Positions 2,337-24,127 of a stretch of DNA of 42,142 nt are shown piece after piece. The stretch's first letter is position 1, and the number at the start of each line of letters is the position of its first letter. The position numbers were made by a program, and so were the translations under genes. The notes beneath the pieces are model-generated. The model saw only the letters and a program-made list of their open reading frames with translations. It was not told the origin of the DNA and made no database searches. Source of the stretch: Candidatus Gastranaerophilales bacterium (GTDB lineage Bacteria; Cyanobacteriota; Vampirovibrionia; Gastranaerophilales; Gastranaerophilaceae); contig CALURX010000016.1 in the NCBI GenBank assembly GCA_944323265.1, positions 1-42,142 on the forward strand, written 5' to 3'.

Positions 2337-2363
2337 AAAAAGGGGTATTTATACCCCTTTTTT
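2337..2363 (-). terminator. Terminator overlapping the regulator stop codon
   Basis: AAAAAGGGGTAT (2337-2348) and ATACCCCTTTTT (2351-2362) form a nearly perfect hairpin with a two-base loop. The TAA stop of the leftward gene lies in the loop, and the minus-strand copy ends in a T run. Confidence 0.7.
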
Positions 2364-2594
2364 GCGCCATTCAATACTATAATTAAGTATTTCAGCAATT
2401 TCCAACACCTCTGAATATTTGATTGAACCGCGTTTAAGTTTTTGAGATAAACTTTGCACGCTTTCAGGTCTGTTGCATTTCTCCGTTATTAAATCCGCCA
2501 ATGATGTCGCAGTTAATCCGGACGCAGCAATATATCCGCGGATTTGATTTTCAATAGCTTTTGCAGCGTCTTTGTCTGTAGTCGGTTTAGTCAT
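2349..2594 (-). CDS. Small helix-turn-helix regulator, DUF6471-like
   Basis: An 81-residue protein, charged at the N-terminus, with a helical repressor-like core. The segment SLADLITEK...VQSLSQKLKRGSIKYSEVLEIAEIL resembles the DUF6471/Cro-type HTH pattern, in which a Ser-Leu-Ser...Lys/Arg-Arg-Gly recognition helix is typical. It starts at an ATG behind the GAAAGTGAGGTAAT site also used by early genes. It is transcribed away from the early block from a promoter 40 bases upstream and has its own terminator. Divergent placement and repeats in the shared control region suggest it represses early transcription. Family assignment is by eye. Confidence 0.6.
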   Translation of the reverse strand: MTKPTTDKDAAKAIENQIRGYIAASGLTATSLADLITEKCNRPESVQSLSQKLKRGSIKYSEVLEIAEILNYSIEWRKKGV

Positions 2595-2701: not shown

Positions 2702-2730
2702 TTGACAATCTTAATGTTATCGTTTAGAAT
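2702..2730 (+). promoter_or_regulatory. Rightward early promoter
   Basis: TTGACA (2702-2707), a 17-base spacer, TAGAAT (2725-2730). It drives the gene at 2753 and probably the following early genes. The -10 region overlaps a copy of the AGAATGTnAATAT repeat. Confidence 0.7.
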
Positions 2731-2938: not shown

Positions 2939-2970
2939 TTGAACACAAAAAAAGAAAGTGAGGTAAAAAA
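2939..2970 (+). promoter_or_regulatory. Leader motif (TTGAACACAAAAAAAG) with GAAAGTGAGG ribosome site
   Basis: A shortened copy of the repeated leader motif, overlapping the previous stop codon and followed by GAAAGTGAGGTAAAAA and the next ATG. The same GAAAGTGAGG cassette precedes the starts at 2594 (minus), 3710, 4466 and 4784. Confidence 0.5.
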
Positions 2971-3677
2971 TGGCAAACTACTTTGAAAAATGCAAAACGT
3001 CCGAGGAGCTTAAAGCGACTTACAAAGAGTTAGTTAAAAAGTATCACCCGGATATTTACGGCGAAAAAGGAAACGAAATCTTAAAAGAAGTACACAACCA
3101 ACTTGAAAAAGCGGTAAAAAGAATTGATAAGGGGTTTAAAACTTCTTCAAATTATGCCGAAACTGATTTAAACGAAACAGCCGAAACAATCAATTTGAAA
3201 AAAGAGTTATTAAAAGAAGCATTAAAACATGCTTTTCCGGAAGGTGCGCTATTCGCTTTATATTGGCAGCATGGTTTAAGACCAGCAAATCACCGCAACC
3301 CCTTAACAAAGCATAATTTCAGCGGCTGGAATATCTGGACATTAGAAATCGAAAAGCTACAAAATGGCTATCAATCTAATGAGTGGTCTACATTTGCACA
3401 GTATAAAACGGCTAAAAACTCCGTTAAAAAAGGCGAACATGGAACTTATATCACCCTTGCTATTATTGCAAAATCTAAAAAAGATGATGAGACCGAAACA
3501 GATGAACCAGTAAAAGAAAAAATCTATTACAAAGGTTATACCGTATTTAATAAAGAACAGGTTAGGGGCTTAGATGATGTAACGGCTATTGAGACAGTAA
3601 AAGCGATTACAGCTAAAAAAGAACCGGTACAAAAAACGCTTGATTTATGGTCTAAAAAATATGAGGTTATAGCCTAA
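2970..3677 (+). CDS. J-domain fused to ArdC N-terminal-like (antirestriction) domain
   Basis: 235 residues. Residues ~5-50 read as a J-domain: two amphipathic helices joined by YHPD (the HPD motif, around residue 26), the part of DnaJ-type co-chaperones that stimulates DnaK ATPase. A charged linker follows. Residues ~105-205 match the ArdC N-terminal pattern: NPLTKHNFSGWNIWTL, then WSTFAQYKTA, VKKGEHGTYI and YTVFNKEQVRGL. ArdC proteins are antirestriction proteins whose N-terminal domain binds ssDNA. The fusion suggests protection of entering DNA combined with recruitment of host Hsp70. The C-terminal metallopeptidase of full ArdC is absent. Confidence 0.7.
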   Translation: MANYFEKCKTSEELKATYKELVKKYHPDIYGEKGNEILKEVHNQLEKAVKRIDKGFKTSSNYAETDLNETAETINLKKELLKEALKHAFPEGALFALYWQHGLRPANHRNPLTKHNFSGWNIWTLEIEKLQNGYQSNEWSTFAQYKTAKNSVKKGEHGTYITLAIIAKSKKDDETETDEPVKEKIYYKGYTVFNKEQVRGLDDVTAIETVKAITAKKEPVQKTLDLWSKKYEVIA

Positions 3678-3709: not shown

Positions 3710-4375
3710 ATGTTTGAAAATGAAACCAATAAAATATTAAGCAAGTATTCTGAATCTTTGAAACTATTAAAAAAGCTTCATGCAATAGTTGACTCATACA
3801 AATACGGACAAGAAAAATATGAGAGTGTTTTTTATAGAGCAGTCCCGGACGTATTAGAGTTTGATAGTTTAGATTATTATGCACATGAAGCATTAAATAG
3901 TATTTTAAAAGAAAATGAATTAGCATGGTATTTACCGCAAAAGTTTAAAAAAATGGACAAATTAAGCGTAAAAGAGCATGCAAAAAAGATTAATTCAATT
4001 ACTCCAGAAGTGTTTTATTATAGCGCTTTTTACAAAGATACTTATAATAGGGTTTGTTATAAAGAAAAAGAAACATACAGTATAAAAAATAATACTTATG
4101 AGGATACAAAAAGCTATACAGCTAAAATGTTTTTAATTCTTAATTGCATTTATTTACTCGATAATCCGGAAGCAATAACGGAAGAGCAAAGGCGCAAAAT
4201 ATATAATGCTCTAAAAGATAAAACATTTATATTTAATGGTTGTAAAGTTACCTTGTATAATAACGGACGCTTAATTATAAAATTCTCTAATCCTGAATTG
4301 TTTAAGCGTTTTGAAAACAAAGTAAATTCTACAATTAAGTTGCTTGAAAAAGATTTAAAAGGATTGAGTTATTAA
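3710..4375 (+). CDS. Hypothetical early protein
   Basis: A 221-residue, Lys- and Tyr-rich, soluble and largely helical protein with no signal peptide or membrane segment. I recognise no motif or family. It has the GAAAGTGAGGTAAAAA ribosome cassette. Its stop codon (4373-4375) is one base before the hammerhead ribozyme, so the self-cleaved mRNA for this gene would end with the ribozyme body just past the stop. Confidence 0.65.
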   Translation: MFENETNKILSKYSESLKLLKKLHAIVDSYKYGQEKYESVFYRAVPDVLEFDSLDYYAHEALNSILKENELAWYLPQKFKKMDKLSVKEHAKKINSITPEVFYYSAFYKDTYNRVCYKEKETYSIKNNTYEDTKSYTAKMFLILNCIYLLDNPEAITEEQRRKIYNALKDKTFIFNGCKVTLYNNGRLIIKFSNPELFKRFENKVNSTIKLLEKDLKGLSY

Positions 4376-4376
4376 A

Positions 4377-4438
4377 ACCGCTGATGAGTCTTTGAGAATT
4401 AAGACGAAACGGGGCGTAGCTCCTCCGCCCCGTCCGGT
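4377..4438 (+). ncRNA. Hammerhead ribozyme, type I
   Basis: All core elements are present in order. Stem I is ACCG (4377-4380) with CGGT (4435-4438). The core CTGATGA is at 4381-4387. Stem II is GTCTT (4388-4392) with AAGAC (4401-4405), loop of eight. GAAA is at 4406-4409. Stem III is CGGGGCG (4410-4416) with CGCCCCG (4426-4432), loop of nine. Then T and C (4433-4434) provide U16.1 and H17. Cleavage would fall after 4434. Stem I is open, hence type I. It sits between two early genes, so it should cut the polycistronic mRNA 31 bases before the next ATG. Confidence 0.9.
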
Positions 4439-4465
4439 ATAAGAAAAAATGAAAGTGAGGTAAAC

Positions 4466-4645
4466 ATGGCTACTATTTACGATTTTGAAATTGAGTACGA
4501 CCCTGCAAAAGATAAATACTATTTATCTAAAAATTGCGGCGATTTAATTGGGACTTTTTACGGTGCATGGGCATTGAAAGAATTTTTGTACAGTGAATAT
4601 GATTTAATCGGTCCGCAGGTTGAAAGTGCTATATACAACGCATGA
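4466..4645 (+). CDS. Small hypothetical protein (59 aa)
   Basis: Starts MATIYDFEIEYD and ends SAIYNA. Acidic, Tyr-rich, no membrane segment, no family recognised. It has the GAAAGTGAGGTAAAC ribosome cassette, which would be left near the 5' end of the RNA after hammerhead cleavage. Confidence 0.6.
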   Translation: MATIYDFEIEYDPAKDKYYLSKNCGDLIGTFYGAWALKEFLYSEYDLIGPQVESAIYNA

Positions 4646-5980: not shown

Positions 5981-6595
5981 ATGGACAGAGTAAATGAGGA
6001 TTTTGTTAAAAGACTTTGTGAGAGATTAAGACTTTATTTTGGCGAAGTATCAGTACGAATAGACCTTAATACAACATTCGGTTGCACTTCAATCGAAGTA
6101 TCATTAAGTAATAAAGGGACTATGAGATATACTTTTCGGGGAGACATTATTGATGATATTGATGATATTGTGCAATATTTTGTAAGAACTTTTCCGAGGT
6201 ACCTATTACCCCATGTTGAACTCTATAACTTTGAACTGGAATCAGAGCCAGAAACAGAAACAGGGCCAATGACACCGGTTGAAGGTATAAAATACGATAA
6301 GGGTAAACCCAGAATGTGTGAGATGATTCAAGATTTTGCCGAACCGCTCGAAGAAGTTGCTAAAGTATGGGCGTTTGGTGCTGATAAGTATTCTAAAGGT
6401 AATTGGCGTTATGTTCTTGAAGGAGAAGAGAGATATTCTAATGCTTTAATGCGGCATTTATTAGCAGAACAAGACTGCGCTATAGATCTGGAGAGCGGAT
6501 TATATCACGCAGCGCATGTCGCATGGAACGCCTTAGCACGTTTGTATTTTATTAAGAAAAGATATGCTTCGGAGGTTTGTAAGAGTGAAGATTAG
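5981..6595 (+). CDS. dATP/dGTP pyrophosphohydrolase-like protein (DUF5664) with extra N-terminal domain
   Basis: 204 residues. The C-terminal half (from GIKYDKGKPRM, ~residue 102) matches the phage dATP/dGTP diphosphohydrolase / DUF5664 pattern: KYSKGNWR, ALMRHLLAEQD, then SGLYHAAHVAWNALARL. Such MazG-like all-helical enzymes hydrolyse purine dNTPs and alter nucleotide pools. The first ~90 residues are an unrecognised domain. Related enzymes occur in phages with modified purines, but no PurZ-like gene is present, so base substitution is not supported. The next gene's GTG start overlaps its end. Confidence 0.7.
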   Translation: MDRVNEDFVKRLCERLRLYFGEVSVRIDLNTTFGCTSIEVSLSNKGTMRYTFRGDIIDDIDDIVQYFVRTFPRYLLPHVELYNFELESEPETETGPMTPVEGIKYDKGKPRMCEMIQDFAEPLEEVAKVWAFGADKYSKGNWRYVLEGEERYSNALMRHLLAEQDCAIDLESGLYHAAHVAWNALARLYFIKKRYASEVCKSED

Positions 6596-10892: not shown

Positions 10893-12674
10893 ATGACTAA
10901 ACAACTTAAACACTTTCAAGAAATCGGCAGAGATTTCATGCTAAACCGACAAACCGCACTATTAGCAGATGATATGGGACTAGGCAAAACCGTACAAGCA
11001 GCGGCAGTTATTAACAAACTCGCCCCTAAACGTGTTTTAGTATTAACCCTCTCTACATTAAAAATTAACTGGGAACGGGAATTAAAAGAGTGGGTTACAG
11101 GCGATTATAAGTATCAGATTATCTATAAAATAAAGGATAAAGTTGAAAAAGATGTAAATGTAATTATTTGTAATTATGATTTGATAATCCATAATGAAAT
11201 ACATTCACAGCTAAGAAGTTTACATTTTGATGTTATTGTACTTGATGAGGCGCATAACCTATCAAATAAAGAAGCGCAGCGCACAAAAAAGGTTTTTTCT
11301 AATTCCGGACTTATCAGAAGCGCTGATCGTGTTTATTGCTTAACAGGCACACCGGTCCGGAATCGGCCTAAAGATTTTTATATTATGCTCAAAACTCTTG
11401 CACCAGAGTGCATAGAACCATATACCGATTATGAAAGTTATGCGGTAAGATATTGCGGTGGTTATATAGATAGCTACGGCAGTTTATACGACCGTGGGGC
11501 GTCCAATGTAGAAGAGTTAGCGGAACGTATTAAGCCCTTTATGCTAAGACGTACAAAGGAAGAAGTTTTACCGGAATTACCACCGTTAATTGAAAAAAAT
11601 ATTGAGTTAGAATTAACGGAAGAAATACAAAAAGTATTAAATGAAGAAAGCGAACTGCAAGAAGACATAAATGAGTATAACGATAATGAAGGTCTGGGGG
11701 TTCAAGCTACAATCCGCAGACAGTTAGGGATAGCAAAAATACCGCAGGTGATTGAATATGCACAAAACCTTTTGCAAACGCAAGAAAAAATAGTTATTTT
11801 TGCTTATCATAGAGATGTTATAAATGAATTACGCAGGCGTTTGGCCGGCTATGGTGTCCGTGCTATCCTCGGCGGCATGACCGCTAAGGGTAAACAAATG
11901 GAAGTTGATCTATTTATTAGAGATAAAAACAGTAGAATTTTTATCGGACAATTTACGGCGGCTGGATTTGGGGTTGACGGTCTGCAAAAGGCGGCAAGTG
12001 ACATTGTTTTTGCTGAAATTGACTGGGTGCCGGGTAACATGGATCAAGCAAGAGACAGGGTAAGGCGTATAGGACAGATTAATCCTGTAGTTGCGCATTA
12101 CCTTGTTGTACCGGAAACCTTAGAAGATGAAATGTTACAAACAGTTATAAGGAAGGGTAAAGTGATTACCCGAATATTGTCGAATACAAGTAAAGAAAAG
12201 GAGAAGAAAACCATGACAATTGAAAACTCACTCGAAAGAATCGCAAATGCACTTGAAAAAATGGTAGGTATTGCAGAAAATACAGAACTAGCATGTAATA
12301 CTTGTAGTGAACCTACACAAGAAGCACCTAAGAAAAAAAGCTCAAAGAAAAAAGCGGAACCGACTGAACCGGCCCCGGTTGAACCAGTTGAACCGGTAGC
12401 GGTAGCAGAAGTTGTAGAAGACACTACACCTGTTCCGGCGGCAGACAATTCCGTTGATGACCGGTTAGGAGTAGATACACCGGCTGAAACTAAAGTTGAA
12501 TTAACGTTAGATGATGTAAGAACAGCCTTTACAGCATTTATAAAAGCCGCACCGGATCAAGCAACAGGTGTGCAACAGGCTAAAGCGGTTTTAACAAAAT
12601 ACGGTTATAAACTTGTACCAGAAGTTAAACCGGAACATTATGCGGTAGTTATTAATGATTTAAAGGTGGCATAA
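10893..12674 (+). CDS. SNF2-family helicase fused in frame to a second phage protein
   Basis: 593 residues. Residues 1-440 form a compact SNF2 ATPase: DDMGLGKT (26-33), DEAH (118-121), TGTP (151-154), a second RecA lobe with IVIFAYHRDVI, and QARDRVRRIGQ (385-395). Residues 441-593 are separate: a coiled start (MTIENSLERIANALEKM), a Lys then Pro/Glu/Val-rich low-complexity linker, and a small C-terminal domain. The DNA at the junction is a complete leader, TTGTCGAATACAAG, AAAAGGAG and ATG (12213), so the second part can be made alone. The helicase probably remodels DNA during replication. Confidence 0.8.
   Translation: MTKQLKHFQEIGRDFMLNRQTALLADDMGLGKTVQAAAVINKLAPKRVLVLTLSTLKINWERELKEWVTGDYKYQIIYKIKDKVEKDVNVIICNYDLIIHNEIHSQLRSLHFDVIVLDEAHNLSNKEAQRTKKVFSNSGLIRSADRVYCLTGTPVRNRPKDFYIMLKTLAPECIEPYTDYESYAVRYCGGYIDSYGSLYDRGASNVEELAERIKPFMLRRTKEEVLPELPPLIEKNIELELTEEIQKVLNEESELQEDINEYNDNEGLGVQATIRRQLGIAKIPQVIEYAQNLLQTQEKIVIFAYHRDVINELRRRLAGYGVRAILGGMTAKGKQMEVDLFIRDKNSRIFIGQFTAAGFGVDGLQKAASDIVFAEIDWVPGNMDQARDRVRRIGQINPVVAHYLVVPETLEDEMLQTVIRKGKVITRILSNTSKEKEKKTMTIENSLERIANALEKMVGIAENTELACNTCSEPTQEAPKKKSSKKKAEPTEPAPVEPVEPVAVAEVVEDTTPVPAADNSVDDRLGVDTPAETKVELTLDDVRTAFTAFIKAAPDQATGVQQAKAVLTKYGYKLVPEVKPEHYAVVINDLKVA
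12177..12212 (+). promoter_or_regulatory. Leader motif and ribosome site inside the SNF2 frame
   Basis: TTGTCGAATACAAGTAAAG followed by AAAAGGAGAAG and the ATG at 12213. It has the same layout as the leaders before other genes, but here it is translated as part of the SNF2 frame because no stop separates the two genes. Confidence 0.6.
12213..12674 (+). CDS. Internal-start product: 153 aa protein of unknown role
   Basis: It begins at Met441 of the SNF2 frame with a better ribosome site than the SNF2 gene itself. N-terminal helix, CNTC pair, Lys block (KKKSSKKK), Pro/Glu/Val linker, then a folded C-terminal domain of ~60 residues (LTLDDVRTAFTAFIKAAPDQ...). The layout resembles small accessory replication proteins that sit next to DUF2800 genes, but I do not recognise the family. 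It overlaps the next start by one base. Confidence 0.5.
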   Translation: MTIENSLERIANALEKMVGIAENTELACNTCSEPTQEAPKKKSSKKKAEPTEPAPVEPVEPVAVAEVVEDTTPVPAADNSVDDRLGVDTPAETKVELTLDDVRTAFTAFIKAAPDQATGVQQAKAVLTKYGYKLVPEVKPEHYAVVINDLKVA

Positions 12675-19262: not shown

Positions 19263-19308
19263 TTGTGTTCGACACTTATATTATGTCTTATTTTTACAGC
19301 AATATCAA
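19263..19308 (-). promoter_or_regulatory. Lysis promoter with leader motif at the start site
   Basis: On the minus strand TTGATA (19308-19303), 17 bases, CATAAT (19285-19280), and then TGTCGAACACAA (from ~19274), which falls at the expected transcription start. It gives the lysis genes their own promoter, apart from the main late operon. Confidence 0.6.
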
Positions 19309-20750: not shown

Positions 20751-22274
20751 CTACGACAAGCTTTCTATAAGTGTATTGACTTGTTCGACTGTGTACCCCA
20801 TGCGGAATAATCGAGCATGTTCGTCTTCTATCAGTTCCTGCTGATAGTATAATATAGTTTCCGGATTGTCTTGATCCATGCTCTCAATAACTCTGTGAGT
20901 GTCGTCTGTTACCCCTATCTCTTTTGAAGCAAGGGGGGAGACAGTAACCCATACAAAGCGATCATCTCTCAATGATTCTAAAAATTTTTTAGTCTCATTA
21001 GGAAAAATAGCCTTTAAGTTTTCAACGTCATACTTTGTTGCAATATCTGTGTACTTTGGAAATCCGCGCATTTTTACCTCCTTTATTCTTTTTCTCGCGT
21101 TTTCAAACTTCTCATCTAACCCTATACGTTTACGAAAGTTATACGTGTTGGCGTGTTTAGCCCAGCCGTAAAAAGCCCCTAACGTAGAAGTATATTGAAT
21201 GAGAGTTATTTTCTTTTCTTCTAATAACCTGTCTAATTTAGCGACCTTTTTCCGGATCCGTTTTGCAGTTCTCTTTTTAAGCAAAACGTAACCCGGAAAA
21301 TGCCTATAACCTATGAATGGGACACCGTTATCACAGCGTAAAAATTTCTTTTTGCTTAATTTGAGTTTTAAATTTTCCGATAGGAAAGTTTCAAACTGTT
21401 CGATTTTTTCCTTTAATTCCGGAAGATTGTTACTAAAATGTGACTTATCGTCCATATATCGACCAATCGCTTTAAGCTTTAGAACGTGCGCCTCAAATTG
21501 ATCCGCTTCATTAAGATAAAGATTACCTAAATGCTGACTTAATAAGTTACCTATAGGGGTATTGGTTTCGCCTTCTATGGAGTATACTATATCCTTTAAT
21601 AACGCTAATATCTTTTTATCTTTTATTTTTCTTTGTATTACGGCATAAAGTTCATTATGAGGTATACTTGGATAAAATTTTGATACGTCTGTCTGGGCGC
21701 AGTATTTATAACGTTTTACATATTCCGAAATTTTTTTGGAACATTTATGTTGGCCTTTACCTTCTCGGCAAGCGTAACTATTATAAATAAATAATTTATC
21801 CCATATAGGTTTTAGAACATTGACTAACGCATGTTGTACTATCCTATCCGGATATAGCGGTAGAATATAAAGCGTTCTTGGCTTAGGATCTTTTATATCC
21901 CTTGTCTTGTATTCACTTGTAGTAAATTTTCCGCTATCAACTATGTATATCAAATGTTGCATAAATCTTTTTATCCGTTTTTCCCTGCGTTTTTCATATT
22001 CTTTTCTGGTCTCATTTTTGCGTTGTGTTCCAAGAATTTTGCGCACATATTTATTATCTCTTCTTCCTTTTTTAGCTTTATGAAAAGCGCATATAAAATT
22101 ATCCAATGTTATAAATTTTTCGTACAAATTCCCGTGTCTTCTTACCATAAAAGCGAAAAGCCCCTTACTTTCGGCAGCCCTACTAACAAAGGGCTTTCCT
22201 GTTGTGTATTCTTCCATATCCTGCGAATACGGAAAGGATATAGGTCCAGCCGTCCAGCGGCTTACTAGCCGCAA
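20751..22274 (-). CDS. DGR reverse transcriptase with C-terminal extension
   Basis: The open frame gives 507 residues from TTG at 22274; AGGTGG lies eight bases upstream. ATG starts at 22217 and 22148 are alternatives, and the last begins MVRRHGNLYEKF, where typical DGR enzymes begin. Landmarks: QTDVSKFYPS (catalytic Asp ~196), IGNLLSQ (241-247, the GxxxSQ signature of DGR enzymes), YMDD (273-276) and FIGYRHFPGYVL. The usual end (FYGWAKHANTYNFRK) is near 381; ~120 further residues follow that I do not recognise. It copies the template repeat into cDNA with errors at A. No Avd gene is nearby. Confidence 0.9.
   Translation of the reverse strand: MRLVSRWTAGPISFPYSQDMEEYTTGKPFVSRAAESKGLFAFMVRRHGNLYEKFITLDNFICAFHKAKKGRRDNKYVRKILGTQRKNETRKEYEKRREKRIKRFMQHLIYIVDSGKFTTSEYKTRDIKDPKPRTLYILPLYPDRIVQHALVNVLKPIWDKLFIYNSYACREGKGQHKCSKKISEYVKRYKYCAQTDVSKFYPSIPHNELYAVIQRKIKDKKILALLKDIVYSIEGETNTPIGNLLSQHLGNLYLNEADQFEAHVLKLKAIGRYMDDKSHFSNNLPELKEKIEQFETFLSENLKLKLSKKKFLRCDNGVPFIGYRHFPGYVLLKKRTAKRIRKKVAKLDRLLEEKKITLIQYTSTLGAFYGWAKHANTYNFRKRIGLDEKFENARKRIKEVKMRGFPKYTDIATKYDVENLKAIFPNETKKFLESLRDDRFVWVTVSPLASKEIGVTDDTHRVIESMDQDNPETILYYQQELIEDEHARLFRMGYTVEQVNTLIESLS
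22257..22272 (-). other. Hairpin at the template-repeat / RT boundary
   Basis: GCGGCT-TACT-AGCCGC on the plus strand, six pairs and a four-base loop. It starts exactly where the template/variable homology stops. A structured element just 3' of the template repeat is known to matter for cDNA priming in the Bordetella DGR; here a role is inferred from position. Confidence 0.45.
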
Positions 22275-22426
22275 TTACGTATCCACCTGCGCGCGCCGAC
22301 ATTCGTATTCAGATTCAGAGCCGAGTTATTCCCATTACGAGACGAAGGCCCAGCATAGCCGGAGTTATTCCAATTCCCGCCAACTATCAAACGCCCGAAT
22401 AGACCTATACCCTGTAATTTCATCAT
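22265..22426 (-). other. Open frame (53 codons) covering the template repeat
   Basis: Starts MMKLQGIGLFGRLIVGG and continues in the same frame as the fibre C-terminus to a TAG at 22265. It is effectively a detached copy of the fibre tip. GAGG lies about 12 bases before the ATG, so translation is doubtful. The frame may be kept only because it was copied from the fibre gene. Confidence 0.4.
22273..22394 (-). repeat. DGR template repeat (TR)
   Basis: 122 bases, between the fibre gene and the reverse transcriptase. It aligns without gaps to the 3' end of the fibre gene at a constant offset of 201 bases. In the fibre frame it is rich in AAT/AAC codons (WNNSGYAGPSSRNGNNSAL NLNTN), which is the hallmark of DGR templates. 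The GC-rich CGGCGCGCG near its 3' end is shared with the VR and may be part of the IMH* region. Confidence 0.92.
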
Positions 22427-22456
22427 AAGTCGTACTTGTCCTCTTTATAACCTTAT

Positions 22457-24127
22457 TTATTGTTTACTCCGTAAAGGACGGCACCACCCGCGCGCGCCGA
22501 CACCCGTATCCAGATGCAGAGCCGAGGCAGACCCAGTACGAGACGAAGGCCCAGCATAGCCGGAGTCATTCCAACTCCCGCCAACCCTCAAACGCATACA
22601 AGAGCCATATTGATATGCTTTCGTATCATTAAATGATCCGGCTTGCGCCCAGTTTGAGCCGCCTGTAGCCGCAATATGACTTGTTACTTGCCATAATACA
22701 CCGACATCATCTTCATCACCGCCGTTTGATAATATACGGCGTCCGCTTTCATTAACATGACCACCGGCAGTTAAACAATAACTTTCCGCTTTTCCTTGAA
22801 TAGCTTTTAACGGTTCAACTCCTTGTGCGGATACGGTAAATGCTAAACTTGATATAAGTTCCATTCCGACCATGCCTACATCAAACTCATGCCCCCAGTA
22901 ATCACGTGATCTGGTATGCGTAGCACCGTATTCAAAAACGGTATTTGTACCCGTTCCGGATTGCATGTAAATAGTTTTCCAGCCGTCTAATTCCGGAACA
23001 TAACGCATACCGGAAGGGCTGCAAATAGGTCTATGCCATAACGTCCATACTGATAAAGGTAAAATATCACCGGCAAGCCAACCGCTTAAATCGTGACCCT
23101 CAATTGTTCCGGCGTCAACACATAGCGTATGGAATCCGCCTATACGTCTAGTATTCAATGCACTATACCCTGTAGGCGCTGTTTTATTCAGAGATACCTT
23201 AATTCCTATGCTATTTGTTGCTGTATCATCAGGAACTAAGAATATACTATAATCCTTACCGTTTGTAAGCGTTTCTCCTGTATCGAGCAAATCCTCTACG
23301 TTTAGCGTTTGATCTTCCCAGACACAAAATAAACGCGATTCACTTGTACTGCCGCTATCTGTTTCAGTTGTTATATCCAGTCTGATAAAAGTGTTTTTCA
23401 AAATTTTAAGTTTACGTTTGTCTGCATACTCAATAAATCTATTAACATCAGCCTTTACACTGTCAAACGGTAAGTTAAAAATCTCGCCGTTATTTAATCT
23501 CGCCCAAGTTGTAAGGCTTACGGACGCCGGGAATTGTCCTGTGATAGCCGCGGCGGCTTCTGCATTTAATTCGGATCTATCCGCCTGTGCTTCTGCTAAA
23601 GCAACTTGTGCTTGACATTCTTCAACAACCTCGTCCAGATTATATTGAGAGTTCTTGATAGTAGCAGTGTTTCCCTCAATATCGTATATTAAAGCTTTTC
23701 CGTCTTGCGGCTCTTCAAAGTTAATCTCCGAAATAGATGAAAAGCCCGGAATCTTTAAACATCTGTCTATTTGCTCTTGCAACTGCTGACTTATCATTAC
23801 GCCTCTATCAAAAGCATTCTCAATGGTTTCTTCCGGAAAATTCCCTTCTGTTGGGATTTCTTCCGGTTGAATAAGCGGAATTTCTCTGTAAGCATAACAG
23901 TTATATCCGGGGTGAACCTCATTGAGCTTTAATGTTCCGCCGTCCTCAATCCTGCTTATTTCAATTTCATAATCAGTATGCAGCGTTAATAGTGTTTCTT
24001 CCGAAGTTTCTTGATTTATCAAGGAAACAATCAAATCCTTTTCATTAAAAATCTTAAACTCAAAAGGTATGTCCTTTACTTCGCTGCAATCTACTAAAAG
24101 TTTGTTTTCGTCATTCCATACAGCCAT
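22457..24127 (-). CDS. Tail fibre, target of the DGR (T7 gp17-like N-terminus, lectin-type tip)
   Basis: 556 residues. The N-terminal ~125 residues match the T7 tail-fibre head domain (FPEETIENAFDRGVMISQQLQEQIDRCLKIP), which attaches the fibre to the tail. A coiled segment with Ala/Glu repeats follows (~175-195), then a C-terminal domain ending YQYGSCMRLRVGGSWNDSGY...GARGWCRPLRSKQ, with the Gly/Trp/Arg pattern of C-type-lectin-fold DGR targets. The last ~40 residues are the variable repeat. It binds the host receptor. It lies directly upstream of TR and RT. Confidence 0.88.
   Translation of the reverse strand: MAVWNDENKLLVDCSEVKDIPFEFKIFNEKDLIVSLINQETSEETLLTLHTDYEIEISRIEDGGTLKLNEVHPGYNCYAYREIPLIQPEEIPTEGNFPEETIENAFDRGVMISQQLQEQIDRCLKIPGFSSISEINFEEPQDGKALIYDIEGNTATIKNSQYNLDEVVEECQAQVALAEAQADRSELNAEAAAAITGQFPASVSLTTWARLNNGEIFNLPFDSVKADVNRFIEYADKRKLKILKNTFIRLDITTETDSGSTSESRLFCVWEDQTLNVEDLLDTGETLTNGKDYSIFLVPDDTATNSIGIKVSLNKTAPTGYSALNTRRIGGFHTLCVDAGTIEGHDLSGWLAGDILPLSVWTLWHRPICSPSGMRYVPELDGWKTIYMQSGTGTNTVFEYGATHTRSRDYWGHEFDVGMVGMELISSLAFTVSAQGVEPLKAIQGKAESYCLTAGGHVNESGRRILSNGGDEDDVGVLWQVTSHIAATGGSNWAQAGSFNDTKAYQYGSCMRLRVGGSWNDSGYAGPSSRTGSASALHLDTGVGARGWCRPLRSKQ
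22474..22595 (-). repeat. DGR variable repeat (VR), 3' end of the fibre gene
   Basis: Matches the template at 103 of 122 bases. Of the 19 differences, 17 are at template adenines (T on the plus strand); the other two are at 22482 and 22587. Changed residues include Asn to Ser, Asp, Thr, Ala, His, Gly and Pro. The repeat runs to within six codons of the stop. Confidence 0.92.

Follow-up and report, generated by a model that had tools for sequence, protein, structure and literature searches.

A type I hammerhead ribozyme between two early phage genes belongs to a large phage lineage and may process early mRNA

The DNA analysed here (the window, 42,142 nucleotides) is an apparently complete, circularly assembled gut phage genome of about 42 kb with an identical 77-base repeat at both ends. 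It carries a hammerhead ribozyme, which we place about 1.7 kb into a presumed early transcript because of the repressor, promoter match and ArdC gene that lie upstream (Table 1). The original prediction had located the element between two cistrons of an early operon, and the flanking ORFs, together with the promoter match and the ArdC gene, bear this out. Neither a strong promoter nor an intrinsic terminator was found from 4376 to 4466.

Table 1. Coordinates of the ribozyme, its parts and the neighbouring genes in the window.
Feature	Position	Strand	Basis or remark
Divergent repressor	2349-2594	-	Upstream of the early genes
Sigma-70-like promoter match, TTGACA-17-TAGAAT (11/12)	2702-2730	+	Consensus match; candidate start of the early rightward transcript
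Early gene, ArdC N-terminal (anti-restriction) domain	2970-3677	+	Pfam ArdcN 61.6 bits, cutoff 22.6; PHROG anti-restriction
Upstream cistron, 221 aa, no assigned function	3710-4375	+	UAA stop at 4373-4375; homologue precedes the ribozyme in L190 and L224
UAAA, upstream stop plus the purine site conserved in the lineage before stem I	4373-4376	+	Presumed loop II partner; putative tertiary role
Type I hammerhead ribozyme	4377-4438	+	Core and stems read directly; fold, alignment, covariance model
Stem I, ACCG/CGGT, 4 pairs	4377-4380 / 4435-4438	+	Sequence read directly
Catalytic core CUGAUGA	4381-4387	+	Sequence read directly
Stem II, GUCUU/AAGAC, loop UGAGAAUU	4388-4392 / 4401-4405 (4388-4405)	+	Sequence, fold
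GAAA (G12 A13 A14 A15.1)	4406-4409	+	Sequence; GAA is 4406-4408
Stem III, 8 pairs (A15.1-U16.1 plus 7), loop UAGCUCCUC	4409-4416 / 4426-4433 (4409-4433)	+	Sequence, fold, alignment
Predicted cleavage site, after C17 (4434)	4434/4435	+	Position set by core and stem I
Conserved ribosome-binding region GAAAGTGAGG	4451-4460	+	Recurs upstream of early genes
Downstream cistron, 59 aa, no assigned function	4466-4645	+	Homologues directly 3' of the ribozyme in L190, L144 and L205

Elsewhere in the window, the motif GTCGAACACAA occurs six times (at 2112, 4753, 5421 and 8538 on the plus strand and at 19273 and 36512 on the minus strand; 0.02 expected), mostly just 5' of gene starts and on the coding strand, with a near-copy at 12179 (+). 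Both here and in related phages the motif comes after one of three elements, namely a -10-like box, a covarying small hairpin or, in L004, L144 and L205, a ribozyme stem I, which would suit a tag for a common mRNA 5' leader. Within the helicase ORF (10893-12674), an ATG near 12208 has its own ribosome-binding site, and 5' of these lie a hairpin and a GTCGAATACAA motif that is seen in relatives too; the ORF possibly gives rise to two products. On the minus strand, 20751-24127 holds a reverse transcriptase beside a tail protein, at whose 3' end lies one copy, 88% identical, of a 112-nt repeat (repeats at 22283-22394 and 22484-22595); this region is likely a diversity-generating retroelement.

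Direct reading of the ribozyme confirmed its predicted extent, its stems of 4, 5 and 7 pairs and all core nucleotides. The predicted distances were also correct: the UAA stop lies just before position 4377, and the cut would fall 31 nt before the ATG at 4466. The prediction spoke of a U16.1-C17 pair, and both nucleotides are present as described, but U16.1 pairs with A15.1 and C17 is unpaired. The invariant core (C3 U4 G5 A6 N7 G8 A9, G12 A13 A14, A15.1-U16.1 and H17) is complete within 4381-4434, and in both fold and alignment three helices join at the core with the open end at stem I, the arrangement of type I. For the isolated element, the minimum free energy structure is exactly the hammerhead (-22.9 kcal/mol, z -2.5). 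When 361 nt of context were folded, with a model that leaves out co-transcriptional folding and the tertiary contact, the predicted structure retained stem II and most of stem III and lost stem I.

At gathering cutoffs, Rfam gave no match in the window or in its relatives. At a permissive threshold, Hammerhead_1 (RF00163) aligned over the whole model (1-45) with 22.0 bits, below its cutoff of 34, and RAGATH-1-hammerhead (RF03152) aligned over its whole length with 22.8 bits against a cutoff of 56.3. The element was nevertheless the sole Hammerhead_1 match in the 2.2-Mb assembly (E = 0.0085). The Rfam type I model, proposed earlier as a check, scored the element below threshold, whereas a covariance model of the lineage built without this phage group did recognize it. 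This held-out model drew on 50 copies from other phages, with the window and all known phages of its group excluded, and covers stems I and II and, of stem III, the first two pairs only. It gave the element 59.3 bits, with E = 2e-15 over seven sources; against the full 2.2-Mb assembly E was 4e-14 for the element and 0.7 for the runner-up, values that are rough owing to a shortened calibration although the margin is large. Weak model matches in the genomes of relatives had E-values of 4e-4 to 0.01. We attribute the sub-cutoff Rfam score to a model that is too insensitive, since at cutoff it also called no hammerhead in 18 loci that hold copies of the lineage. The window carries a real hammerhead.

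Related phages were retrieved through the primase-helicase, terminase and ArdC proteins; a search for relatives with the 221-aa upstream protein as query found none, and an exact search using the window's own stem I gave no match. A contig from another assembly (L158) is circularly permuted and shares an 8-kb stretch at 96% identity with the window. All seven other relatives that span the site carry the element (L158, L224, L190, L144, L205, L004 and L006). L224 (on the same contig as L005), L190, L144 and L205 have one copy each, beside homologues of the window's flanking genes, while L004 has three copies and L006 one. When the eight elements of this group, one per phage, are aligned, the core and stem II are unchanged, as is most of loop II, and stems I and III are rewritten with their pairing maintained. 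No related phage had disrupted stems, an outcome that would have spoken against the original prediction. The compensatory changes it anticipated in stems II and III are found in stem III; stem II is constant in the group and different in the distant terminase relatives L226 and L234, which have hammerhead-like elements. Relatives came from bins labelled Gastranaerophilales, Elusimicrobia and Bacteroidales, so we consider the binning unreliable and claim no host.

A search pattern that fixes the core and stem II only recovered at least 120 stretches in IMG/VR. Bacterial and archaeal assemblies yielded 68, many of them Clostridia and Lachnospiraceae records that plausibly represent prophages or co-binned phages. 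The crAss-like phage genomes cr53_1, cr131_1, cr272_1 and cr273_1 share this core, as do, at 90% identity, the Agathobaculum phages AB434P2 and AB434P3; AB434P2 shows changes on both sides even at the second stem III pair. The core was not found in 28 Gb of E. coli genomes or in 7.3 Gb of plasmids. Among the matches listed there were 181 distinct cores with sufficient flanking sequence, and 151 of them can be completed to a type I fold with at least 4 pairs in each of stems I and III, compared with a mean of 0.5 and a maximum of 4 when the 3' flank was dinucleotide-shuffled. This test does not presuppose the stems and is cleaner, unbiased evidence than a 55-sequence alignment whose rows were picked for having them, in which 99.4% of pair cells hold standard pairs, 210 cells are double changes (58 when shuffled) and the covariation score is 0.61 (0.11 when shuffled). 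Compensatory change across the lineage is extensive in stems I and III. The invariance of stem II across the lineage is set by the design of the search, and stem II does vary in L226 and L234. Loop II is almost constant in 155 copies, of which 150 have A at -7 and 150 a purine (A/G) at -6; by analogy with known type I hammerheads, these purines and the conserved loop may form a tertiary contact between stem I and loop II.

Some copies depart from the standard form. In L076, L098, L101, L105, L109, L125 and L128, stem III consists of three standard pairs followed, where further pairs would be expected, by a recurring CUA.../GAUGG-type internal motif. In L028, L041, L046, L114, L131 and L164, stem II is intact and stems I and III have no convincing partner in the available DNA; some of these cores share an upstream TGTAGA or CACCAAAGC, and they may be decayed, split or part of another fold. 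A Parablautia muri contig (L154) has a pistol ribozyme (6368-6436, 71 bits) about 300 nt upstream of its hammerhead.

Lineage copies are intergenic and on the coding strand of the flanking genes, and the distance from the cut to the next plausible start codon has a median of 40 nt in the 124 copies where a start was found. Well over a hundred other phage sequences, from the gut and from the environment, carry close copies of the element at such gene boundaries. They share with clustered phage and prophage hammerheads an intergenic position within operons, on the same strand and often in multiple copies; the window has one copy only. From its sequence and setting, self-cleavage of the hammerhead probably separates the neighbouring early cistrons of the phage mRNA. 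The nascent early mRNA would fold the ribozyme and cut itself at 4434/4435, between the 221-codon and 59-codon genes. In a type I topology almost all of the ribozyme would stay on the upstream mRNA, whose end, the folded body of the ribozyme with stems II and III and a 2',3'-cyclic phosphate, would serve as a 3' cap; the downstream mRNA would begin with a 5'-OH and a 31-nt leader bearing the ribosome-binding site. These fates of the two ends are those expected from known hammerhead chemistry, and the stability and expression of the adjacent early genes would become uncoupled. Built-in, protein-free processing of the early mRNA, as originally proposed, is thus supported as the best reading, and the phages of this lineage probably trim their own mRNAs without a protein enzyme.

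Processing of phage mRNA by hammerheads has been proposed before, and the window element is a further example. Perreault et al (2011; PMC3088659) described hammerheads flanking genes in prophages, for example in Clostridium scindens and, near ardA, in Agrobacterium tumefaciens, and suggested that phage transcripts are cut into operon- or gene-length mRNAs; three arrays were shown to cleave in vitro and one in E. coli. The present element resembles these prophage clusters in its hammerhead core, its intergenic position in a phage operon and its proximity to an anti-restriction gene. The clusters often have several copies around single genes, as do parts of the present lineage. A near-constant stem II and loop II and an overlap with the upstream stop characterize our lineage and are not described in the phage-cluster section of that paper. 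Some lineage copies may already be in its alignments. We found no account of the stop-codon overlap or of the stem II lineage in the literature accessible without most subscription journals. HHphage of the haloviruses HF1 and HF2 (PMC3088659) is likewise found a few bases 5' of an early viral gene, but it is a structural variant from archaeal viruses, 13 nt from the start codon, whereas the window element has a canonical core and would be cut 31 nt away. Among the Rfam families, Hammerhead_1 shares its type I topology and core, with a stem III shorter than that of the window, and the extra upstream hairpin of RAGATH-1-hammerhead forms poorly in the window.

The position of the upstream stop codon raises another reading. 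In 83 of 142 copies an ORF of at least 60 codons ends at -14 to +1 of the core, where random positions would give 3.9; most often these ends fall at -8, -9 and -10, and a second maximum lies at +1, on the core's own UGA. UAA at -8 terminates an ORF of 60 or more codons in 24 of 53 cases compared with 3.4% of other UAAs on the same strands, an author-annotated CDS of AB434P2 stops at -9, and in the window the upstream UAA coincides with the conserved purine site. With the stop codon inside the element, a ribosome that terminates there could cover stem I and the core and delay cleavage, so that cutting would report upstream translation. Part of the precision of the stop positions is forced, since any ORF that reads into the element will meet one of the stop triplets within it and end there; that upstream ORF and element abut is not forced in this way. 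Compact genomes together with these triplets could, however, yield the same spacing. The evidence for such ribosome gating is positional, and we regard it as possible but rather doubtful, and as the most interesting of the readings raised. The stronger proposal, that the stop is built into the ribozyme periphery throughout a widespread lineage such that terminating ribosome and folded ribozyme would be mutually exclusive, seems unlikely to us; if true, phage mRNA would be cut only where upstream translation had ended or never begun.

Pairs of ribozymes could also excise fragments with 5'-OH and 2',3'-cyclic-phosphate ends, to be ligated into circular or discrete RNAs. Two of the three copies in L004 closely flank a 279-codon ORF, as such a scheme would have it, but the single copy in the window leaves no excisable fragment there, and Perreault et al (2011) sought such products and report none (PMC3088659); we consider this very unlikely. 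It is at least as improbable, and in our estimate slightly more so, that the element is a decayed relic that has lost the ability to cut. The score under the Rfam cutoff and a short stem I of only 4 pairs would fit decay, but all core positions are intact, other relatives have compensated stems, and in one relative the element is identical despite 15.6% site differences in the upstream gene, although the adjoining 3' stretch is identical too. A chance resemblance of an ordinary hairpin or transcription terminator to a hammerhead, for which one could cite the GC-rich stem III, is ruled out for practical purposes by the model E-value and the covariation, and the element is not followed by a T-run and was not called as a terminator.

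Separation of early cistrons by self-cleavage remains the reading we favour. The role of prokaryotic hammerheads has been listed among the field's open questions (PMC6155905). The lineage described here is large, has one recognisable signature and is missed at Rfam cutoffs; it reaches crAss-like phages and, with the Agathobaculum phages AB434P2 and AB434P3, phages of a gut bacterium in culture, and its copies often have a stop codon directly on one side and the next ribosome-binding site on the other. These properties open mRNA processing, and its possible link to translation, to direct tests in a phage amenable to cultivation.
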